Assembly: GCF_900187885.1 (NCBI RefSeq) | Contig: NZ_FYEK01000044.1 | Location: forward strand, 124,001 to 188,000 | Length of the DNA: 64,000 nt | Origin: Thermoflexus hugenholtzii JAD2 | GTDB taxonomy: Bacteria; Chloroflexota; Anaerolineae; Thermoflexales; Thermoflexaceae | Direction of reading: 5' to 3' | Shown: positions 14,238-22,876 of the stretch, in pieces | Layout: every line of letters starts with the position of its first letter | Position numbering within the stretch: position 1 is the stretch's first letter | Translations under genes and position numbers: made by a program | The notes under the pieces: generated by a model | Databases searched by the model: none | What the model was told of the DNA's origin: nothing | What the model saw: the letters and a program-made list of their open reading frames with translations, nothing else

Positions 14238-14684
14238 TCATCCCCGAGACGTGGGTTTCATCACACGGACCCGGCGGCTCAGGGTCCAGCCCAGGAGCGT
14301 GCCCAGGAGGAGGCCGAGGAGCAGGCCGATCCATGAGGCCTGCGGGCCGGCGGGCGTTCCCTCCACGGAGCGGGCGAGGATCAACCCGGCCCGCCCGCCG
14401 TGCATCCGGAGGTTGCGGGCGAGCACCAGGCCGGCCCAGCTCTTGTGGAGCTCCGCCTCCTGGGAGGAGGCCAGCCCGACCGCGCTTTCCCGAAATTCCA
14501 TGCGCACGCCCCGCGCTGTTCCGAAGGCCGCGCGCTGGGCGTGGACCTGGTTGGCCGCAAGGTGGGAGATGGCCGCCTCCTGGCACGTGGCCGTGTTGGC
14601 GATCAGGGATCCCACCTGGACCCTGGAGAGCGCGATCGACTCCGCGCTCAGAGCTTCCGGCCCTCGAGGTTCAGCCTCCGACAT
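14238..14684 (-). CDS. Repeat-containing protein with C-terminal membrane anchor
   Basis: A 148-residue protein. Residues 12-105 show a loose period of about 18-19 residues, with small residues and hydrophobics recurring (VGSLIAN, ISHLAAN, VGLASSQ, AGLVLARN, AGLILARS). This suggests a short beta-solenoid or stacked-strand fold. A single hydrophobic helix follows (about 118-135, IGLLLGLLLGTLLGW) and then a basic end (SRRVRVMKP), so the repeat domain is tethered to the membrane. The function is unknown. A promoter with TTGACG and TACAAT 17 bp apart lies upstream. It probably shares a transcript with rplY. Confidence 0.55.
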   Translation of the reverse strand: MSEAEPRGPEALSAESIALSRVQVGSLIANTATCQEAAISHLAANQVHAQRAAFGTARGVRMEFRESAVGLASSQEAELHKSWAGLVLARNLRMHGGRAGLILARSVEGTPAGPQASWIGLLLGLLLGTLLGWTLSRRVRVMKPTSRG

Positions 14685-14811: not shown

Positions 14812-14840
14812 ATTGTATAGGGCCCGGGCAGGGGCGTCAA
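14812..14840 (-). promoter_or_regulatory. Sigma-70-type promoter for the 14684 gene
   Basis: On the minus strand TTGACG (14840-14835) and TACAAT (14817-14812) are separated by 17 bases, about 128 bp upstream of the ATG at 14684. It is back to back with the argC promoter. Confidence 0.5.
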
Positions 14841-14855
14841 GCCAGAGCCCCTATC

Positions 14856-14884
14856 TTGACAGATCTCAACGATCTGATTATGAT
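14856..14884 (+). promoter_or_regulatory. Consensus sigma-70 promoter of the arginine operon
   Basis: TTGACA (14856-14861), a 17-base spacer and TATGAT (14879-14884). Transcription should begin near 14891, just ahead of the leader peptide. It is the best-matching promoter in the window. Confidence 0.8.
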
Positions 14885-14913
14885 TAGGGCCAAATCCTGG
14901 GATGAGGATCCGT

Positions 14914-15009
14914 ATGACGTTGGCTTTCATCCGCTTCCCACGCATCCGTCGTCCGGAGACCCTGCCGGGTATCGGGTCCGGTGCGGGGAAGTGGGTGATT
15001 GGCCATTGA
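14914..15009 (+). CDS. Arginine-rich leader peptide of the arg operon (candidate attenuator)
   Basis: ATG 14914 has GATGAGG six bases upstream and encodes 31 residues to TGA 15007-15009. Residues 5-14 read FIRFPRIRRP, four Arg in seven positions with three of them (R10, R12, R13) nearly adjacent. An in-frame ATG at 14902 would add two more Arg but has a weaker binding site. The frame sits between a consensus promoter and a strong intrinsic terminator (15037-15071), directly upstream of argC. By analogy with his, trp and leu leaders, ribosome stalling at Arg codons under arginine shortage could prevent terminator formation. The antiterminator pairing was not established. Confidence 0.5.
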   Translation: MTLAFIRFPRIRRPETLPGIGSGAGKWVIGH

Positions 15010-15036
15010 TGAACTCCCTTTAGAGATCACACTCAA

Positions 15037-15071
15037 CCCCCCGGGCTCGATGCCCGGGGGGTTTTCGTTTT
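15037..15071 (+). terminator. Intrinsic terminator in the argC leader (attenuator)
   Basis: A perfect 10-bp stem (CCCCCCGGGC / GCCCGGGGGG) with loop TCGAT is followed by TTTTCGTTTT. It lies 28 bp after the leader-peptide stop and 32 bp before the argC ATG, with no gene upstream on this strand other than the leader peptide. Confidence 0.85.
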
Positions 15072-15102
15072 CCCAGGAGTTCTGGATGCGGAGGCAACAA
15101 GA

Positions 15103-16116
15103 ATGTGGCGAGTGGGGATCTACGGGGTGACCGGCTACGCCGGGTTCGAGGTCTTCCGCCTGCTGCGGCGACACCCGGCGGTGGAGATCGTCTTCGCCGC
15201 CTCGGAGAGCGGCGCCGGCAGTGTCCTCTCCCAGCTCTTCCCCACTACGGAGGACTTCCCGGTGGTGGGCTTCGCGGAAGCCCCCCTGGATCAGGTGGAC
15301 GCGGTGTTCCTGGCGTTGCCCCACGGGGTCTCCGCTTCGGTGGCCCGCCAGGCCCACGACGCCGGCGTGCGCGTCATCGACCTCTCCGCCGACTTCCGCC
15401 TGAAGGACCCTGCGACATATGCCCGATGGTATCGGGAAGCGCATCCCGCCCCCGAGCTGTTGCCTGAGGCGGTCTACGGCCTGACGGAATGGAACCGGGC
15501 GGCCATCCGTGAGGCGACGCTGATCGCCAACCCCGGCTGCTACCCCACCGCCACCCTCCTGGCCCTGCTCCCCCTGGCCCAGGCCGGGGCCGTGGGGCCC
15601 GGCCCCATCGTGGTGGACGCGAAATCCGGGGTCTCCGGGGCCGGCCGCAAACCCTCCCTCACCACCCACTTTGTGGAGGTGGATGAGAACCTGAGCCCCT
15701 ACAGCATCGGCCGCGCCCACCGCCATCTGCCGGAGATGGAACAGATGCTGCAGGCCATCCACGGCACCCTCGGCCCCCTGGTGTTCTCTCCCCAGCTGCT
15801 CCCGGTGGCCCGGGGCATCCTGGCCACGATCTACGTCCCCCTCGCCCCCGGCTGGACCGAGGCGATGGTCCACGAGCTGCTGACGGAGGTGTATGGGCGC
15901 GAGCCCTTCGTGAAGGTGCTGCCTCGCGGGACGCTGGCGACGCTCCGCCACAGCGTGGGGACGAACCTCTGCGTGCTCTCGGTGACCGGCGTGCCGGAGG
16001 CCGGCATGGTCATCGTGACGTCTTCCATCGACAACCTGATCAAGGGCGCCGCCGGGCAGGCGGTCCAGAACTTCAACGTGATGTTCGGGATCGAGGAGAC
16101 AGCGGGCCTTCTGTGA
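15103..16116 (+). CDS. argC: N-acetyl-gamma-glutamyl-phosphate reductase
   Basis: A 337-residue NADPH-dependent reductase catalysing the third step of arginine synthesis (N-acetylglutamyl phosphate to N-acetylglutamate semialdehyde). The nucleotide-binding loop GVTGYAG is at 8-14, and the catalytic Cys146 lies in ANPGCYPTA. The C-terminal half has the dimer-domain motifs GAGRKPSLTTHF and SPYSIGRAHRHLPEM. Length is standard for the family. GGAGG 15090-15094 precedes the ATG by eight bases. It is first in a six-gene arg operon controlled by the upstream promoter and leader. Confidence 0.97.
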   Translation: MWRVGIYGVTGYAGFEVFRLLRRHPAVEIVFAASESGAGSVLSQLFPTTEDFPVVGFAEAPLDQVDAVFLALPHGVSASVARQAHDAGVRVIDLSADFRLKDPATYARWYREAHPAPELLPEAVYGLTEWNRAAIREATLIANPGCYPTATLLALLPLAQAGAVGPGPIVVDAKSGVSGAGRKPSLTTHFVEVDENLSPYSIGRAHRHLPEMEQMLQAIHGTLGPLVFSPQLLPVARGILATIYVPLAPGWTEAMVHELLTEVYGREPFVKVLPRGTLATLRHSVGTNLCVLSVTGVPEAGMVIVTSSIDNLIKGAAGQAVQNFNVMFGIEETAGLL

Positions 16117-16144
16117 GCGCGCGGCGGTGAGGAGGAGAGAGACG

Positions 16145-16873
16145 ATGCGGGTGATCAAGATCGGGGGCCACGAGCTGGACCAGCCCTCTTTCCTGGAGGG
16201 CCTGATCGCCGCCCTGCGCCGGATGCGACCGCTGCCCCTCCTGGTCCACGGCGGGGGGAAGGCGGTGAGCGCCTGGCAGCAGCGGGTGGGGCTCACCCCG
16301 CGCTACATCGGCGGGCTGCGGGTGACCGACGACGAGACCCGGGAGCTGGCGGTGATGACCCTGGCGGGGCTGACCAACAAGTCCCTGGTGGCGGCCCTGG
16401 CCCAGGCTGGCCTCCCTGCCCTGGGCCTGTGCGGGGCCGACCTGGCCCTGGTGCGGGTGGAGCCCCTGCCGGAGCTGGGATGGGTGGGGAAACCATCGGC
16501 GGTGGACGCGGAACGCCTCCGGCGCTGGCTGGCGGAGGGGCTGCTGCCGGTGATCGCCCCCATCGGCCTGGGGCCCGGGGGGCTCTACAACGTCAACGCT
16601 GACCAGATGGCGGCGGCCATCGCCGCGGCCCTCCCCGCCGAGGAGCTGGTCTTCCTAACCGACGTCCCGGGGGTGCAGGCGGAGGGAGCGGTTCGCCCTT
16701 CCCTCCGCGCCCGGGAGGCCGAGGTGCTGATCGCCGCCGGCGTCATCCGCGACGGCATGATCCCCAAAGTGCGCTCGGCCCTGGAAGCCCTCGCCGCCGG
16801 CGTCCGACGGGTTCGCATCACGAACCTGAGCGGCCTAGAGGCCGGCGGCACCGAGATCCTCGCGGAGGCATAG
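16145..16873 (+). CDS. argB: N-acetylglutamate kinase
   Basis: A 242-residue amino-acid kinase phosphorylating N-acetylglutamate. MRVIKIGGHEL is the N-terminal ATP-binding strand and loop, LLVHGGGKAVS the second glycine loop, and GLYNVNADQMAAAIA with VFLTDVPGV the substrate and nucleotide motifs. It is slightly shorter than typical ArgB and lacks the N-terminal extension of the arginine-sensitive hexameric form, so feedback inhibition is less likely. I prefer ATG 16145, preceded by GAGGAGAG, over a GTG 18 bases upstream. It lies 28 bp after argC and 2 bp before argD. Confidence 0.92.
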   Translation: MRVIKIGGHELDQPSFLEGLIAALRRMRPLPLLVHGGGKAVSAWQQRVGLTPRYIGGLRVTDDETRELAVMTLAGLTNKSLVAALAQAGLPALGLCGADLALVRVEPLPELGWVGKPSAVDAERLRRWLAEGLLPVIAPIGLGPGGLYNVNADQMAAAIAAALPAEELVFLTDVPGVQAEGAVRPSLRAREAEVLIAAGVIRDGMIPKVRSALEALAAGVRRVRITNLSGLEAGGTEILAEA

Positions 16874-16875
16874 CG

Positions 16876-18084
16876 ATGGAGGCGGAGGCCCTGATCGCCC
16901 TAGCGGAACGGGTGTTGGCGCCCACCTACCGACGCCCTCCCGTGCTCTTCACCCACGGCGAGGGGATGTATGTTTACGACGCGAACGGCCGGCGCTACCT
17001 GGACTTCGTGGCCGGCATCGCTGTCTGCGCCCTGGGCCACGCGGATCCCGGGGTGGCCCAGGTGGTCGCCGAGCAAGCCCGGCGGCTGGTCCACCTGAGC
17101 AACCTCTACCACACCGAGCCCCACCTGCACCTGGCGGAGGCCCTGGTCGCCCACAGCTTCGCCGACCGCGTCTTCTTCTGCAACTCCGGCGCTGAGGCCG
17201 CCGAGGCGGCCCTGAAGTTCGCCCGCAAGTTCGCCCGGCTCCGTTTCGGCCCCCACAAGACCGGCTTCGTCGCCTTCACCCACAGCTTCCACGGCCGCAC
17301 GATGGGCGCCCTCTCCGTGACCGAGAAGCCCGCTTACCGCGAGCCCTTCGCCCCCCTGGTCCCCGGGGTGACCTTCGTCCCTTTCAACGACGTGGAGGCC
17401 GCCCGAGCGGCCATCACGGAGGAGACATGCGCGGTGATCGTGGAGCCGATCCAGGGGGAGGGCGGGGTGAACGTGGCCACCCCGGCGTTCCTCCGGGCCC
17501 TGCGGGCGCGCTGCGATGAGGTCGGCGCGCTGCTCATCTTCGACGAGGTGCAGTGCGGCCTGGGACGCACGGGGACCTTGTGGGCCTACGAAGCATATGG
17601 AGTGGAGCCGGATTTGCTGACGGTCGCCAAGCCCCTGGCCAACGGGCTGCCCATCGGGGCTGTCCTGATGCGGGAGGCGGTGGCCGCGGCCCTCCAGCCC
17701 GGGGACCACGGCAGCACCTTCGCCGGCGGACCCCTGGTGACGGCGGTGGCCCTCCACGTGTTCCGGCGGCTGTGCGACCCCACCTTCCTGGCCCACGTGC
17801 GGGAGGTGGGGGAATACCTGATGGCGCGCCTGCAGGCGCTGGCGCTCCCCGGCGTGAAGGAGATCCGGGGCCGGGGCCTGCTGGTGGGGATCGAGATCGA
17901 GGGAGACGCCCGGGCCGTGGTCGCCGCCGCCCTGGAGCGGGGCTTACTGATCACCACCGCCGGCGACACGGTGGTGCGCCTGGTCCCCCCGCTGATCGTC
18001 GAACGGGCCCACATCGACGAGGCCCTGGGGATCCTGGAGGACGCCATGCGGGCGGCCCTCCCCGCCCGCTCTTCCCACGCCTGA
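16876..18084 (+). CDS. argD: Acetylornithine aminotransferase
   Basis: A 402-residue PLP-dependent class III aminotransferase converting N-acetylglutamate semialdehyde to N-acetylornithine. The PLP-binding Lys252 is in LLTVAKPLANG. Other class motifs are CNSGAEAAEAALKFARK (102-118), HSFHGRT (137-142), FDEVQCGLGRTG (222-233) and GSTFAGGPL. Length and N-terminus match ArgD. It follows argB by 2 bp and precedes the GNAT gene by 14 bp. It may also act on succinyl-diaminopimelate intermediates, as some ArgDs do, but this is not visible from the sequence. Confidence 0.94.
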   Translation: MEAEALIALAERVLAPTYRRPPVLFTHGEGMYVYDANGRRYLDFVAGIAVCALGHADPGVAQVVAEQARRLVHLSNLYHTEPHLHLAEALVAHSFADRVFFCNSGAEAAEAALKFARKFARLRFGPHKTGFVAFTHSFHGRTMGALSVTEKPAYREPFAPLVPGVTFVPFNDVEAARAAITEETCAVIVEPIQGEGGVNVATPAFLRALRARCDEVGALLIFDEVQCGLGRTGTLWAYEAYGVEPDLLTVAKPLANGLPIGAVLMREAVAAALQPGDHGSTFAGGPLVTAVALHVFRRLCDPTFLAHVREVGEYLMARLQALALPGVKEIRGRGLLVGIEIEGDARAVVAAALERGLLITTAGDTVVRLVPPLIVERAHIDEALGILEDAMRAALPARSSHA

Positions 18085-18098
18085 ACGGGAGGCATCGG

Positions 18099-18569
18099 AT
18101 GGTGCGGATCCGACCGGCCCGACCCGAGGACATCCCTGCCCTGTTCGGCCTGGTGGACGCCTACGCCCGGCGGGGATTGTTGCTGCCACGATCCGAGGAG
18201 GAGATCGCGGCCACCCTGTCGGATTGGGTCGTGGCGGAGGCGGAGGGCCGGATGGTGGGATGCGGCTCCCTGGTCTGGATGAGCCCGACCCTAGTGGAGA
18301 TCCGCTCCCTGGCCGTGGCCGAGGATTATCAAGGCAACGGCGCAGGGGGCGCCATCGTCCAGGCGTTGGTCCGGCGCGCCCGGGCGGCCGGGGCCCGGGT
18401 CGTGTTCGCCCTCACCCGGGCCGTCCCCTTCTTCGAGCGCCTGGGCTTCGCGGTGACGGAGCGGGAACGTTTCCCCGAAAAAGTCTGGCGGGACTGCGTG
18501 CGCTGCCCCCTGCGGGAGCGCTGCGATGAGGTGGCGGTGGTCTACGCCTTCCCGGAGGACGAGGCCTGA
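18099..18569 (+). CDS. argA: Short GNAT-type N-acetylglutamate synthase
   Basis: A 156-residue single-domain GNAT acetyltransferase inside the arg operon. It has [11 protein letters not shown] at the start, the acetyl-CoA loop [14 protein letters not shown] near 75, FFERLGFAV near 108, and a C-terminal segment [18 protein letters not shown] with a Cys-rich pattern typical of the short ArgA found in many bacteria without the kinase-fused form. It should make N-acetylglutamate from glutamate and acetyl-CoA. Note that the first glycine-loop position reads QGNGAGG rather than the usual QGKGVG. ATG 18099 follows GGGAGG. Confidence 0.85.
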
Positions 18570-18631
18570 GCGGAAGGCGCACGGAGGAAACCCGAATCTG
18601 GGAACCCCATATTGATTCCAGGGAGGTCCGT

Positions 18632-19864
18632 ATGGTTCGCAAGGTGGTGCTGGCGTATTCCGGCGGACTGGACACCTCCACCATCATCCCGTGGCTGCGA
18701 GAGACGTATGGGTGCGAGGTGATCGCCTTCTGCGCCGACATCGGCCAAGGGGAGGAGGAGCTGCGCGGGGTGGAGGAGCGGGCCTACGCCGGCGGGGCGT
18801 CCAAGGTGATCCTCCGCGACCTGCGCGAGGAGTTCCTGCGGGACTACGTGCTGCCCACGGTGCAGGCCGGCGCCGTCTATGAGGGCAAATACCTCCTGGG
18901 GACGGCGATGGCCCGCCCCCTGATCGCCAAACACCAGGTCCAGATCGCCCTGGAGGAGGGAGCGGACGCGGTGGCCCATGGAGCCACCGGCAAGGGCAAC
19001 GACCAGGTCCGCTTCGAGCTCGCCTACCAAGCCCTGGCACCCCATCTGCGGGTGATCGCCCCATGGCGGGAGTGGTCCATCACCTCCCGCCGCGAGGCCT
19101 ATGAATACGCCCGCGCCCACGGGGTGCCCATCGAGTGGAGCACCAGCCGCTACAGCCGCGATCGGAACCTCTGGCACGTCTCCCACGAGGGCGGTCCCCT
19201 GGAGGACCCGGATTGGGAGCCTGAAGCGGATGTCTTCCTCTGGACCACGGATCCGACCTGTGCCCCGGAGACCCCCGAGACCATCACCTTGGCCTTCGAG
19301 CAAGGGGTCCCGGTGGCCCTCAACGGCCAGCCGATGGGCCTGGTGCCCTTGATGGAGGCCCTCAACGCCCTGGGGGCCAAGCACGGCGTCGGACGGGTGG
19401 ATCTGGTGGAGAACCGGCTGGTGGGGATGAAGTCCCGAGGCGTTTACGAGACACCGGGGGGCACCATCCTGGTGGAGGCCCTGCGGGCCCTGGAGACCCT
19501 GTGCCTGGACCGCGAGACCATGCACTTCAAGCAGGCCCTGGCCCTGCGCTACGCGGAGCTGGTCTACTACGGCTGGTGGTTCAGCCCCCTGCGCGAGGCC
19601 ATGGACGCCTTCGTGAAGGTGGTGATGCGGAACGTGACCGGGGAGGTCCGCCTCAAACTGTATAAAGGGAACGTGTGGGTGGTGGGCCGGCGCTCGCCCT
19701 ACAGCCTCTACCGGGAGGACATCGTCTCTTTCGATACCGTGGGGGCCTACGACCACAAGGACGCCGCCGGCTTCATCCGGCTGTTCGGACTCCCGCTGAA
19801 GGTGCACGGCCTGGTCCGCCGCGGGCTGCGCGGGGAGCCCCGCACCCCGGAGGAGCGGGATTAG
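18632..19864 (+). CDS. argG: Argininosuccinate synthase
   Basis: A 410-residue ATP-dependent ligase joining citrulline and aspartate. The N-terminus [12 protein letters not shown] is the PP-loop ATP site. [14 protein letters not shown] (about 118-131) and SVDRNLW-like residues (YSRDRNLWH) are the citrulline/aspartate-binding signatures. Length is standard. GGGAGG lies seven bases before the ATG. It follows the GNAT gene by 62 bp and precedes argH by 30 bp, so the last two steps of the pathway are encoded together. Confidence 0.97.
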
Positions 19865-19894
19865 CCGAACCCCTCGCCTGGGAAAGGAGTCGGA

Positions 19895-21277
19895 ATGCGC
19901 CTGTGGGGGACCGTGGAGAACCCGCCGCTGGATCCGGCCTTCGAGCGGCTGAACGCTTCGCTGCCGTTCGACCGTCGCCTGTATCCCCAGGACATCCGGG
20001 GCTCCATCGCCTGGGCCCGGGCCCTGGCCCGGGCCGGGATCCTGAGCCCCGAGGAGCAGCAGGCCATCGAGGAGGGCTTGCAACGGGTTCGGGAGGAGTT
20101 GGACGCCGGCCTCTTCCTCTTCCGGCCCACCGATGAGGACATCCACACGGCGGTCGAACGGCGGCTCTCGGAGCTCATCGGCCCGGCCGCCGGCAAGCTC
20201 CACACCGGGCGCAGCCGGAACGACCAGGTGGCGACAGATCTCCGGCTCTTTCTGATGGACGAATGGCCGGAGCTGGAGGGCGGGCTGCGCGCGCTGGAGG
20301 AGGCCCTGGTCCGGCAGGCGGAGGCGCACCCGGATCTCCTGATGCCGGGCTACACGCATCTGCAACGGGCCCAGCCCATCCGCTACGCCCAGTGGTGTCT
20401 GGCCCACGCCTGGGCCTTCGAGCGGGACCGGGAGCGGCTGCAGGAGGCCTTCCCCCGCCTGGCCACCCTCCCCCTGGGCAGCGGCGCCCTCGCCGGCACG
20501 CCCTTCCCCATCGACCGGGAGGCCCTGGCCCGGGAGCTGGGCTTTCAGCAGGTCTCCCCCAACAGCCTGGACGCAGTCTCCGATCGGGACTTCGTCGCCG
20601 AATTTCTCTTCATCGCCGCCATGATCGGTATCCATCTCAGCCGCCTGGCCGAGGACCTCATCCTGTTCGCCAGCGCGGAGTTCGGGTTCATCGAGCTGGA
20701 TCCCGCCTATACCACCGGCTCCAGCCTGATGCCCCAGAAGCGCAACCCCGACGCCCTGGAGCTGGCCCGGGCGAAGGCCGGGCGGCTCATCGGGCATCTC
20801 ACCGGTTTCCTCACGGTGCTCAAGGGCTTGCCCTCCGGCTATAACAAGGACCTCCAGGAGGACAAGGAGCCGGTCTTCGATACGGTGGACACGCTGCGGG
20901 CGGTGCTGGCCGTGATGCCCGGCCTGATCGCGACCATGCGGCCCCGCCCAGAACGCATGCGCGCCGCCCTGGAGGAGGCTATGCTGGCCACGGAGCTCGC
21001 CGACTACCTGGTGCGCAAGGGCGTCCCCTTCCGGGAAGCCCATCGGGTGGTGAGCGCGCTGGTGCAGGAGGCCCTTCGGGAGGGGAAGGCCCTGAGCGCT
21101 CTCCCTCTGGAGCGGATGCGCCGGCATCATCCGGCTTTCGAAGCGGACGTCTTCGCCGCCCTGGACCCCGAGGCCGCTGTAGAGCGGCGGGTTGTCATCG
21201 GCGGGACGGCCCGGGCCGCGGTGGACGCCCAGATCCGGGCCCTCCGGGCGCGCCTGGCCCCCGCCGACTCCCAGTAG
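19895..21277 (+). CDS. argH: Argininosuccinate lyase
   Basis: A 460-residue member of the fumarase/aspartase superfamily that splits argininosuccinate to arginine and fumarate. HTGRSRNDQVATDLRL (about 101-116), GYTHLQRAQPI (about 150-160) and the lyase signature TGSSLMPQKRNPD (about 271-283, containing the catalytic Ser loop) are all present. Length matches the family. It is the last gene of the operon. argJ or argE and argF are not in this window and must be elsewhere for a complete pathway. Confidence 0.97.
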   Translation: MRLWGTVENPPLDPAFERLNASLPFDRRLYPQDIRGSIAWARALARAGILSPEEQQAIEEGLQRVREELDAGLFLFRPTDEDIHTAVERRLSELIGPAAGKLHTGRSRNDQVATDLRLFLMDEWPELEGGLRALEEALVRQAEAHPDLLMPGYTHLQRAQPIRYAQWCLAHAWAFERDRERLQEAFPRLATLPLGSGALAGTPFPIDREALARELGFQQVSPNSLDAVSDRDFVAEFLFIAAMIGIHLSRLAEDLILFASAEFGFIELDPAYTTGSSLMPQKRNPDALELARAKAGRLIGHLTGFLTVLKGLPSGYNKDLQEDKEPVFDTVDTLRAVLAVMPGLIATMRPRPERMRAALEEAMLATELADYLVRKGVPFREAHRVVSALVQEALREGKALSALPLERMRRHHPAFEADVFAALDPEAAVERRVVIGGTARAAVDAQIRALRARLAPADSQ

Positions 21278-21330
21278 GAGGGACTCAAGGGCTTTCCCGC
21301 TATTATGGTGAGGGCATTCTCTTCCCACAC

Positions 21331-21336
21331 TATAAT
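21331..21336 (+). promoter_or_regulatory. TATAAT -10 candidate before pepA
   Basis: A perfect TATAAT 35 bp before the pepA start, after the argH stop at 21277. I find no good -35 hexamer, so pepA may have its own weak promoter or be read through from the arg operon. Confidence 0.3.
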
Positions 21337-21370
21337 TCCCTCCGAACACGGCATGCACAGGAGGATGCCC

Positions 21371-22876
21371 ATGCGCGTGGAAGTTCGGATCGGGGCCATC
21401 CAGGAGGTGGAGGCGGATGCGATCGTGGTGAACTTGTTTGAGGGCGTGACGGCGCCGGGCGGGGCCACGGCGGCCGTGGATCGCGCCCTGGAGGGTCGGA
21501 TCTCACGGGTGCTCGCCGCTGGGGACTTCCGGGGCCGCCTGGGGGAGACCCTGGTCCTCTACCCCGACGGGCGCATCCCCGCGCCCCGGGTGATCCTGGT
21601 CGGGCTGGGCCCGGAGGCTTCCTTCAACACCGAAAAAATCCGCCACGCGGCCGCCGCCGCGGCCCAGCGCGCCCGGGACCTGCGGGTGCGGACCCTGGCG
21701 ACGGTGGTCCACGGAGCGGGCCGGGGCGGGCTCTCCCCGGAGGAAGCCGCCCAGGCCACCGTGGAGGGGGCCCTGCTGGGCCTTTACACTTACCAGCGGA
21801 AGAAGGAGAACACCGGAGGATCCGGGCCGGAGACCCTTCTGCTGGTGGAGTTCGACGCCGCCAAGGAGGCGGCCATCGCCGCGGGCGCCCGCCGCGCCGA
21901 GACCCTCGCCCGCTATGTGAACCGGGTGCGGGACTGGGTGAACGAGCCGGGCTCGGATCTGACGCCCCGCCGGCTGGCCGAGGAGGTCCGCGGGCTGGCC
22001 GCCGAGGTCGGCGGCGTGCGGGTCCAGGTCCTGGATGAGCACCAGATCACCGCCCTGGGGATGGGCGCCCTCACGGCGGTGGCCCGCGGCAGCGAGGAGC
22101 CCCCCCGCTTCATCATCCTGGAATACGCCCCGGAGGGCCGCCTGGAGCGGCCGGTGGTCCTGGTCGGGAAGGGGATCACCTTCGACAGCGGCGGGCTCAA
22201 CCTCAAGAGCGAGGAAGGCATGCTCACGATGAAGGGGGATATGGCCGGCGCGGCGGCGGTGCTCGGGGCGACCTTGGCCGCCGCCGCGCTGGGGCTGCCG
22301 GTCCCGGTGGTGGCCCTCGCCCCCGCCTGCGAGAACATGCCCTCCGGCAAATCCTACAAGCCCGGGGATATCCTGCGGGCCCTCAACGGCAAAACCATCG
22401 AGATCGTGAACACCGATGCCGAGGGACGGCTGATCCTGGCGGATGCCCTCTCTTACGCCGCCCGCTACGCGCCCCGCGCGGTGATCGACGTAGCCACCCT
22501 GACCGGGGCAGCCATCATCGCCCTGGGCCAGGATGTGGCCGCCGCCCTGTTCTCGGACCACGAGGAGCTGGCCGCGGCGTTGCTGCGGGCCGCCGAGGCC
22601 ACCGGCGAGCGGCTCTGGCGCATGCCCCTGTGGGAGGATTACCTGGAGCGGATCAAAAGCGATGTGGCCGACGTCAAGAACAGCGGGGGCCGCTACGGTG
22701 GGCTGGGGACCTCCGCCATGTTCCTCAAGCAGTTCGCTCCGGAGGGCGTCCCCTGGGCCCATCTGGACATCGCCCCGATGGATATGGCGGAGAAGGCCCG
22801 GGGTTACATACCCAAGGGAGGGACCGGATTCGGGGTGCGGCTGCTGGTGCGCTACCTGGAGGATCCCCGGCCATAA
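21371..22876 (+). CDS. pepA: Leucyl aminopeptidase (M17)
   Basis: A 501-residue cytosolic aminopeptidase. The C-terminal catalytic domain has VLVGKGITFDSGGLNLK (metal-binding Lys and Asp), DMAGAAAVLG, PSGKSYKPGD and the M17 signature NTDAEGRLILADAL, with two metal sites. The N-terminal macro-like domain occupies about 1-160. It releases N-terminal amino acids, and PepA proteins in some bacteria also bind DNA. I chose ATG 21371, with AGGAGG seven bases upstream, over earlier in-frame starts. It lies 93 bp after argH on the same strand. Confidence 0.95.
   Translation: MRVEVRIGAIQEVEADAIVVNLFEGVTAPGGATAAVDRALEGRISRVLAAGDFRGRLGETLVLYPDGRIPAPRVILVGLGPEASFNTEKIRHAAAAAAQRARDLRVRTLATVVHGAGRGGLSPEEAAQATVEGALLGLYTYQRKKENTGGSGPETLLLVEFDAAKEAAIAAGARRAETLARYVNRVRDWVNEPGSDLTPRRLAEEVRGLAAEVGGVRVQVLDEHQITALGMGALTAVARGSEEPPRFIILEYAPEGRLERPVVLVGKGITFDSGGLNLKSEEGMLTMKGDMAGAAAVLGATLAAAALGLPVPVVALAPACENMPSGKSYKPGDILRALNGKTIEIVNTDAEGRLILADALSYAARYAPRAVIDVATLTGAAIIALGQDVAAALFSDHEELAAALLRAAEATGERLWRMPLWEDYLERIKSDVADVKNSGGRYGGLGTSAMFLKQFAPEGVPWAHLDIAPMDMAEKARGYIPKGGTGFGVRLLVRYLEDPRP

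Follow-up and report, generated by a model that had tools for sequence, protein, structure and literature searches.

The attenuators of the his, trp, leu, thr and ilv operons in Proteobacteria and Actinobacteria share a short translated leader rich in codons for the product of the pathway, a competition between 1:2, 2:3 and 3:4 pairings, and an intrinsic terminator before the first gene. Leader peptides of this type are, to our knowledge, not known for arginine. Arginine biosynthesis is instead the textbook case of a repressor, ArgR/AhrC, in which the same operon is regulated by arginine but through a protein. A comparative study of attenuation in bacteria (Lopatovskaya et al. 2010, Mol Biol 44:128) may contain an earlier prediction; this work aside, we found no report of a bacterial arginine-biosynthesis attenuator in the open literature, our search having covered arginine leader-peptide attenuation, Chloroflexi/Anaerolineae leader peptides and lysine leaders in PMC.

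The leader described here resembles several of these systems without coinciding with any. From the his, trp, leu, thr and ilv attenuators it differs in being found across a class of Chloroflexota, and in that one scaffold serves several amino acids in relatives. In the Salmonella speF leader, ribosome pausing at consecutive Arg codons of orf34 alters RNA folding, a principle that our leader would share; speF differs, as far as the accessible part of that paper goes, in controlling ornithine decarboxylase via Rho, sequestration of the ribosome-binding site and RNase G (PMC6386406), and only the argC leader would govern arginine biosynthesis through an intrinsic terminator. The rare Arg codons of the Staphylococcus aureus rbfL leader peptide sense arginine limitation, but there, in the portion of the article available, the control is translational and acts on a biofilm regulator whose ribosome-binding site is blocked (PMC13009471). 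The T-box (RF00230) offers another likeness, with one RNA scaffold, an exchangeable specifier codon and control by an intrinsic terminator, but it binds the tRNA directly, whereas the sensor of the argC leader would be the translating ribosome. The present system is not described in the accessible parts of PMC8632094, PMC4833913, PMC2965389, PMC1262725, PMC13009471, PMC4046918 and PMC6386406.

The window, that is, the whole stretch of 64,000 nucleotides from Thermoflexus hugenholtzii JAD2 that we analysed, is part of contig C44 of genome G000, as that genome is labelled in our set of relatives. The ArgC encoded here shares 98% identity with a congener's, and the named records with an ArgC 84-86% identical to it are mostly Thermoflexus (Chloroflexota). 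The features on which the argument rests are the following:

14856-14884, plus strand: sigma-70-type promoter, TTGACA (14856-14861), 17-nt spacer, TATGAT (14879-14884)
14899-14908, plus strand: ribosome-binding site of the leader ORF, GGGATGAGGA, with AGGA at 14905-14908, inferred from its spacing to the ATG at 14914
14914-15009, plus strand: leader ORF of 31 codons, from ATG 14914 to TGA 15007-15009, peptide MTLAFIRFPRIRRPETLPGIGSGAGKWVIGH
14921-15005, plus strand: segment 1:2 hairpin of the minimum-energy fold, which holds segment 2 if unmasked
14972-14988, plus strand: segment 2, 5' strand of the predicted antiterminator, TCGGGTCCGGTGCGGGG
15037-15051, plus strand: segment 3, at once the terminator 5' arm and the antiterminator 3' strand, CCCCCCGGGCTCGAT
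15035-15072, plus strand: intrinsic terminator, stem 15035-15063, then the T-rich tract TTCGTTTTCC
15103-16116, plus strand: argC (argC equivalog, TIGR01850), first gene of the operon
15103-22876, plus strand: operon argC-argB-argD-GNAT-argG-argH-pepA, starting at the argC start
18150-18569: GNAT acetyltransferase gene within the arginine operon, flanked by argD and argG

Family searches of the operon's proteins matched argC (TIGR01850), argB (TIGR00761) and argG, and the GNAT protein and the M17 peptidase (pepA) matched domain families; argD and argH were named from the look of their sequences, without a family search, and are presumptive. No argJ was seen within the operon, and the GNAT gene probably encodes N-acetylglutamate synthase.

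A first-pass annotation of this DNA had proposed a consensus promoter, a short ORF with four Arg in seven residues and its own binding site, and a 10-bp GC stem with a T-run before argC, and all three are borne out. The promoter matches the consensus at 11 of 12 positions and is one of two promoter-like sites in 10 kb (0.4 in shuffles); similar TTGACA/TAT--T elements precede the leader in many relatives. AGGA ends 5 nt 5' of the leader ATG, and the Arg codons, all CGC or CGT, begin at 14932, 14941, 14947 and 14950. An alternative in-frame ATG at 14902 would give the leader two further Arg codons, while the start at 14914 aligns with an ATG of the relative L003. The terminator stem has 10 G-C pairs, or 12 pairs counting A-T (-27.9 kcal/mol), and lies between the leader ORF and argC. 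As a separate observation, a second promoter-like site (TTGACG-17-TACAAT, 14812-14840, minus strand) sits 15 bases from the arg promoter and faces away from it, toward minus-strand ORFs at 14238-14684.

What the first-pass annotation had not established was a competing antiterminator, and folding the leader for alternative pairings supplied one. The whole leader RNA is far more stable than its dinucleotide shuffles (z -5.9, 0/200 as good). With no mask, the full transcript folds as hairpin 1:2, whose segment 1 holds the Arg codons, plus the terminator, and it folds so again when a ribosome at the stop codon is mimicked by masking 14993-15020. Masking 14916-14965 instead, to mimic a ribosome on the Arg codons, gives the antiterminator as the predicted structure, both in the full transcript and in one cut before segment 4. 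The antiterminator duplex (14972-14988 with 15037-15051) reaches -26.9 kcal/mol, where shuffles average -19.4, and is near the terminator's own value. All of these are minimum-energy folds computed at 37 °C for an organism that we take to be thermophilic, and their energies should be read as relative values only. Because the leader stop codon of Thermoflexus is situated about 18 nt beyond segment 2, a ribosome terminating there need not cover that segment, unlike in many relatives, where it would do so.

On these grounds a mechanism can be proposed. RNA polymerase would start near 14891, and a ribosome would translate the 31-codon ORF while the leader is being transcribed. With ample charged tRNA-Arg, the ribosome would clear the four Arg codons and reach the stop codon, hairpin 1:2 would sequester segment 2, and the terminator would end transcription before argC. 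With scarce charged tRNA-Arg, the ribosome would stall on the Arg codons and cover segment 1, the freed segment 2 would pair with 15037-15051, no terminator would form and the operon would be transcribed. The attenuator would thus fill the role that ArgR has in other bacteria. The ORF, the alternative pairings, the conservation of the Arg codons, the covariation of the antiterminator and the absence of ArgR are shown by computation; the transcription start, the translation of the ORF, the stalling and the response to arginine are inferred. Put in terms of what defines an attenuator, the locus places, between promoter and terminator, a short ORF that has a start and a binding site of its own; codons for the operon's amino-acid product are in excess in it; an intrinsic terminator precedes the first structural gene; and, by computation only, there is an antiterminator that excludes the terminator when a ribosome covers the control codons.

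The arrangement is conserved. In 8 of 9 Thermoflexus genomes the leader DNA is present once, directly before argC; in the ninth, G006, the contig begins inside argC and has no upstream sequence. RFPRIRR is kept in all 8 genomes with sequence there, and the only variation seen in its seven codons consists of two synonymous changes of Arg codons (L005, L007). A repeat element was also considered and rejected, the leader being single-copy in each Thermoflexus genome. Further out, ArgC is found at E<=1e-70 in 181/296 genomes of the class, and we took 155 argC upstream regions, of which 147 remained once 4 paralogues (L027-L030, about 40% identical and of the LysW-pathway type) and 4 duplicates were excluded. 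In 127 of the 147 regions we could call a terminator together with a suitably spaced ORF that has at least 2 Arg in 8 residues, with 115 passing at a cut of at least 3 Arg and 75 at a cut of at least 4; in 20 of the 147 there was no call, a few of these being truncated contigs. The automatic choice of ORF maximises Arg and is plainly wrong in some rows (L014, L022, L023, L038-L040). The annotation's comparison of relatives came out in its favor, in that the Arg codons are kept together with the terminator, and not the terminator alone.

Measured against dinucleotide shuffles in 133 regions, Arg in short ORFs before the argC terminator is in clear excess (z 13.4; mean best count 3.57 versus 2.37), and at least 4 Arg in 8 residues are reached in 77 regions versus 13.1% of shuffles. 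The next residues after Arg are Ile (z 5.4) and Leu (4.6), with no other above 5.4. Since all six Arg codons are used (115 leaders: CGC 184, CGT 152, AGG 121, CGA 49, CGG 37, AGA 16), it is the amino acid that is kept and not a DNA motif. Control regions from other phyla had at least 4 Arg in 0/67 and at least 3 in 6, but they are weak controls, being mostly Firmicutes and probably of lower G+C, which we did not measure; the shuffles are the better control. In two other families of the phylum, f77 (six genomes, L251-L255 and L258) and f102 (L245, L256), an Arg-rich leader with a terminator before argC was seen by eye; it was absent from the argC regions of f67, f62 and f105 inspected in the same way. 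Conservation excludes a chance origin of the arrangement.

The antiterminator itself covaries in the relatives. Segment 2 pairs with the terminator arm better than shuffles do at p<=0.05 in 62 of 127 leaders and at p<=0.01 in 33, while in the other 65 the duplex is no better than shuffles at p<=0.05. When partners were swapped among 110 leaders, own pairs averaged -18.3 kcal/mol versus -14.8 for swapped ones (z -13.6, 0/20,000 permutations; z -12.2 with the 95 distinct arms only). In the closest-knit subfamily, aligned from 20 leaders, the antiterminator cells are paired in 89.5% of cases versus 26-45% when slid; within these 20 the antiterminator is nearly invariant, and no covariation above shuffles was detected in it. 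The 1:2 and terminator stems of the same subfamily have 95.2% of cells paired and a covariation score reached by 0/500 shuffles.

These data also bear on the alternative that survives best, in which the element is a constitutive partial terminator or a transcriptional insulator and the Arg-rich ORF follows incidentally from high G+C and from the hairpin sequence. High G+C does yield Arg by chance, as the 13% of shuffles that reach 4 Arg in 8 show, and in Thermoflexus the Arg codons also sit in a conserved stem. Yet the excess of Arg stands far above that of shuffles that keep dinucleotides, the antiterminator covaries, and leaders of the same class are rich in Lys before lysine genes and in Pro before proS, and we regard this alternative as improbable.

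The first-pass annotation had hesitated because arginine operons usually rely on ArgR/AhrC. That doubt is answered by the genomes: the ArgR family (PF02863) was found in 0/296 genomes of the class, G000 included, while 8 of 14 control genomes were positive, and all of the 43 genomes with PF02863 among 201 of the phylum are listed outside the class. T-boxes, on the other hand, were present in 101/101 class genomes searched, so that leader peptides and T-boxes share the work in these bacteria. This ubiquity, together with the strong structure of the leader RNA, is what could be said for a riboswitch or T-box that senses arginine or uncharged tRNA-Arg directly, the ORF being incidental. However, no Rfam family, T-box RF00230 included, matches anywhere in the window at the gathering threshold, the Arg codons vary synonymously across six codons, and the codons that precede a common scaffold in relatives fit the downstream pathway, which leaves direct sensing very unlikely. 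Least tenable of all is control of translation rather than termination, by masking of a ribosome-binding site or by coupling, for which one could invoke the Shine-Dalgarno-like AGG AGG of several relatives and, within what is accessible of that article, the action of S. aureus rbfL on translation via arginine codons (PMC13009471), but the Arg codons of the window's leader are only CGC and CGT, which is also why AGGAGG was rejected as a Shine-Dalgarno motif, and an intrinsic terminator separates the ORF from argC, 39 nt before the start codon and at a greater distance in several relatives.

We consider it very likely, in the absence of expression data, that the argC leader is a ribosome-mediated transcription attenuator that senses charged tRNA-Arg and stands in for ArgR. 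The annotation's reading of the locus as an arginine counterpart of his, trp and leu attenuation is supported by the antiterminator, by its covariation and by the Arg codons that have been kept. In the textbook case of a repressor, a whole class would then appear to do without ArgR and to sense arginine by way of ribosome stalling.

The same architecture extends beyond arginine. An initial covariance model, R1, was set aside because it placed just five pairs. Another, R2, built from leaders outside Thermoflexus, included the stretch of Arg codons; R3 leaves that stretch out and contains no sensor codons. Searching the class with R2 gave many matches away from argC, and 90 matched loci away from argC share the stems and the reading frame but differ in codons. 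After its codon run the scaffold leader ends in Pro-Asp..Ser-Gly-stop, from CCA GAC .. TCT GGA TAG read in frame, a tail for which the competing stems themselves are the coding sequence, and the layout in R3 is CCAGAC..GTCTGGATAG..CCAGAC terminator. Leaders before argG or argC are dominated by Arg in 13/15 cases, those before LysW/LysX/homocitrate synthase by Lys in 46/53 (the others being 5 Arg, 1 tie and 1 none), and those before proline-tRNA ligase (proS) by Pro in 8/10. For 78 loci, the agreement between codons and downstream pathway scored 194 versus 17.9 (sd 21.5) with shuffled labels, which reached it in 0/20,000 trials; dropped from this test were the 6 of the 90 loci for which no peptide was called (L333, L404, L406, L408, L413, L421), 3 loci without a gene call and 3 metallophosphoesterase loci with no proS in the fetched stretch. 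The LysW, homocitrate-synthase-type, ArgG and ProS identities come from family searches. Single cases noted by eye are six Gln before glutamine synthetase, glnA (L416), His-His before hisG (L404) and Arg plus Lys before carA (L304); the gene families of these three rest on fragments, with glnA and carA below the curated whole-protein cut-off.

At E<=1e-7, R3 has matches in 105/248 class genomes, hand-picked from the match list. A cut of E<=0.002 was rejected as unspecific, since R3 then also matches 13 of the 20 genomes taken from outside the phylum (best match 26.1 bits, E 5.7e-6), and for that reason the raw counts of 173/248 in the class and 55/201 in the phylum are inflated. At 36 bits or more, R3 is found in 14 genomes of the phylum outside the class, whose best loci are Lys-rich before lysine genes in 8/14 and Arg-rich before argG in 1, the remaining ones lying before LysE-type transporters (3) and before a histidine phosphatase (2); the gene of L426 was named homoaconitase by eye, from a fragment without a Pfam match, and not all 14 genes were submitted to searches. 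The window's own leader is not matched by R3, and its congeners score little above an antisense noise match of 14.1 bits (L004 17.2 bits, L002 15.5). Its parts come in the same order as in the scaffold family, and shared descent is likely, though not shown.

Our data make it probable, with somewhat less assurance than for the argC leader, that Chloroflexota hold a duplicated, modular family of attenuators in which one scaffold of RNA plus reading frame has had its sensor codons swapped, much as in T-boxes, for arginine, lysine, proline and probably glutamine and histidine, and in which some LysW leaders may sense both Arg and Lys. A leader-peptide attenuator can in that case be a reusable cassette whose specificity is altered by a few codon swaps, and the scaffold lets the spread and the changes of specificity of such switches be traced. 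It also allows regulons to be predicted from sequence in uncultured Chloroflexota, and the codon swaps are directly testable with reporters.

Several loci of this family deserve mention for themselves. Arg-rich or mixed Arg/Lys leaders precede LysW-LysX operons in L384, L387 and L388 (G068, G035, G094), L376 (G055) and L379 (G185), a mixed example being LRAKRSKVYPR, and an argC-like gene follows in L379, L384, L387 and L388; they would fit LysW operons that serve arginine or both amino acids. The scaffold lies directly before LysE-type amino-acid transporters in L437 (Lys-rich), L432 and L440 (both Gln-rich). Scarcity would hardly be expected to induce an exporter, so the direction of transport or the amino acid sensed remains undecided. 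Arg/Gln-rich leaders (HRQRRQQ, RRRQRCPQ) precede a gene of the histidine phosphatase superfamily in L435 and L439, where the link to an amino acid is unclear. Pro-rich leaders are found before a metallophosphoesterase and a ParB-like gene in L324, L325, L327, L331, L386 and L414, and proS follows this pair in L325, L331 and L386, an unexplained partnership. Two copies of the scaffold in tandem, 150-420 bases apart and preceding one and the same operon, occur in G171:C10, G113:C112, G064:C13, G097:C6 and G010:C56, and are possibly double attenuators. Finally, the lysine operon of Thermoflexus has a leader of its own (L410-L412), in which two Lys codons and an alternative, antiterminator-like pairing of GGACGGTAG with CTACCGTCC were recognized by eye; this lysW leader, ending in IKKAAAPPGPDGSPVLT and a stop, lies at about 58.2 kb of G000:C66 (L410, 9750-10345) and recurs in L411 and L412, with two hairpins in series and a T-rich stretch after each.
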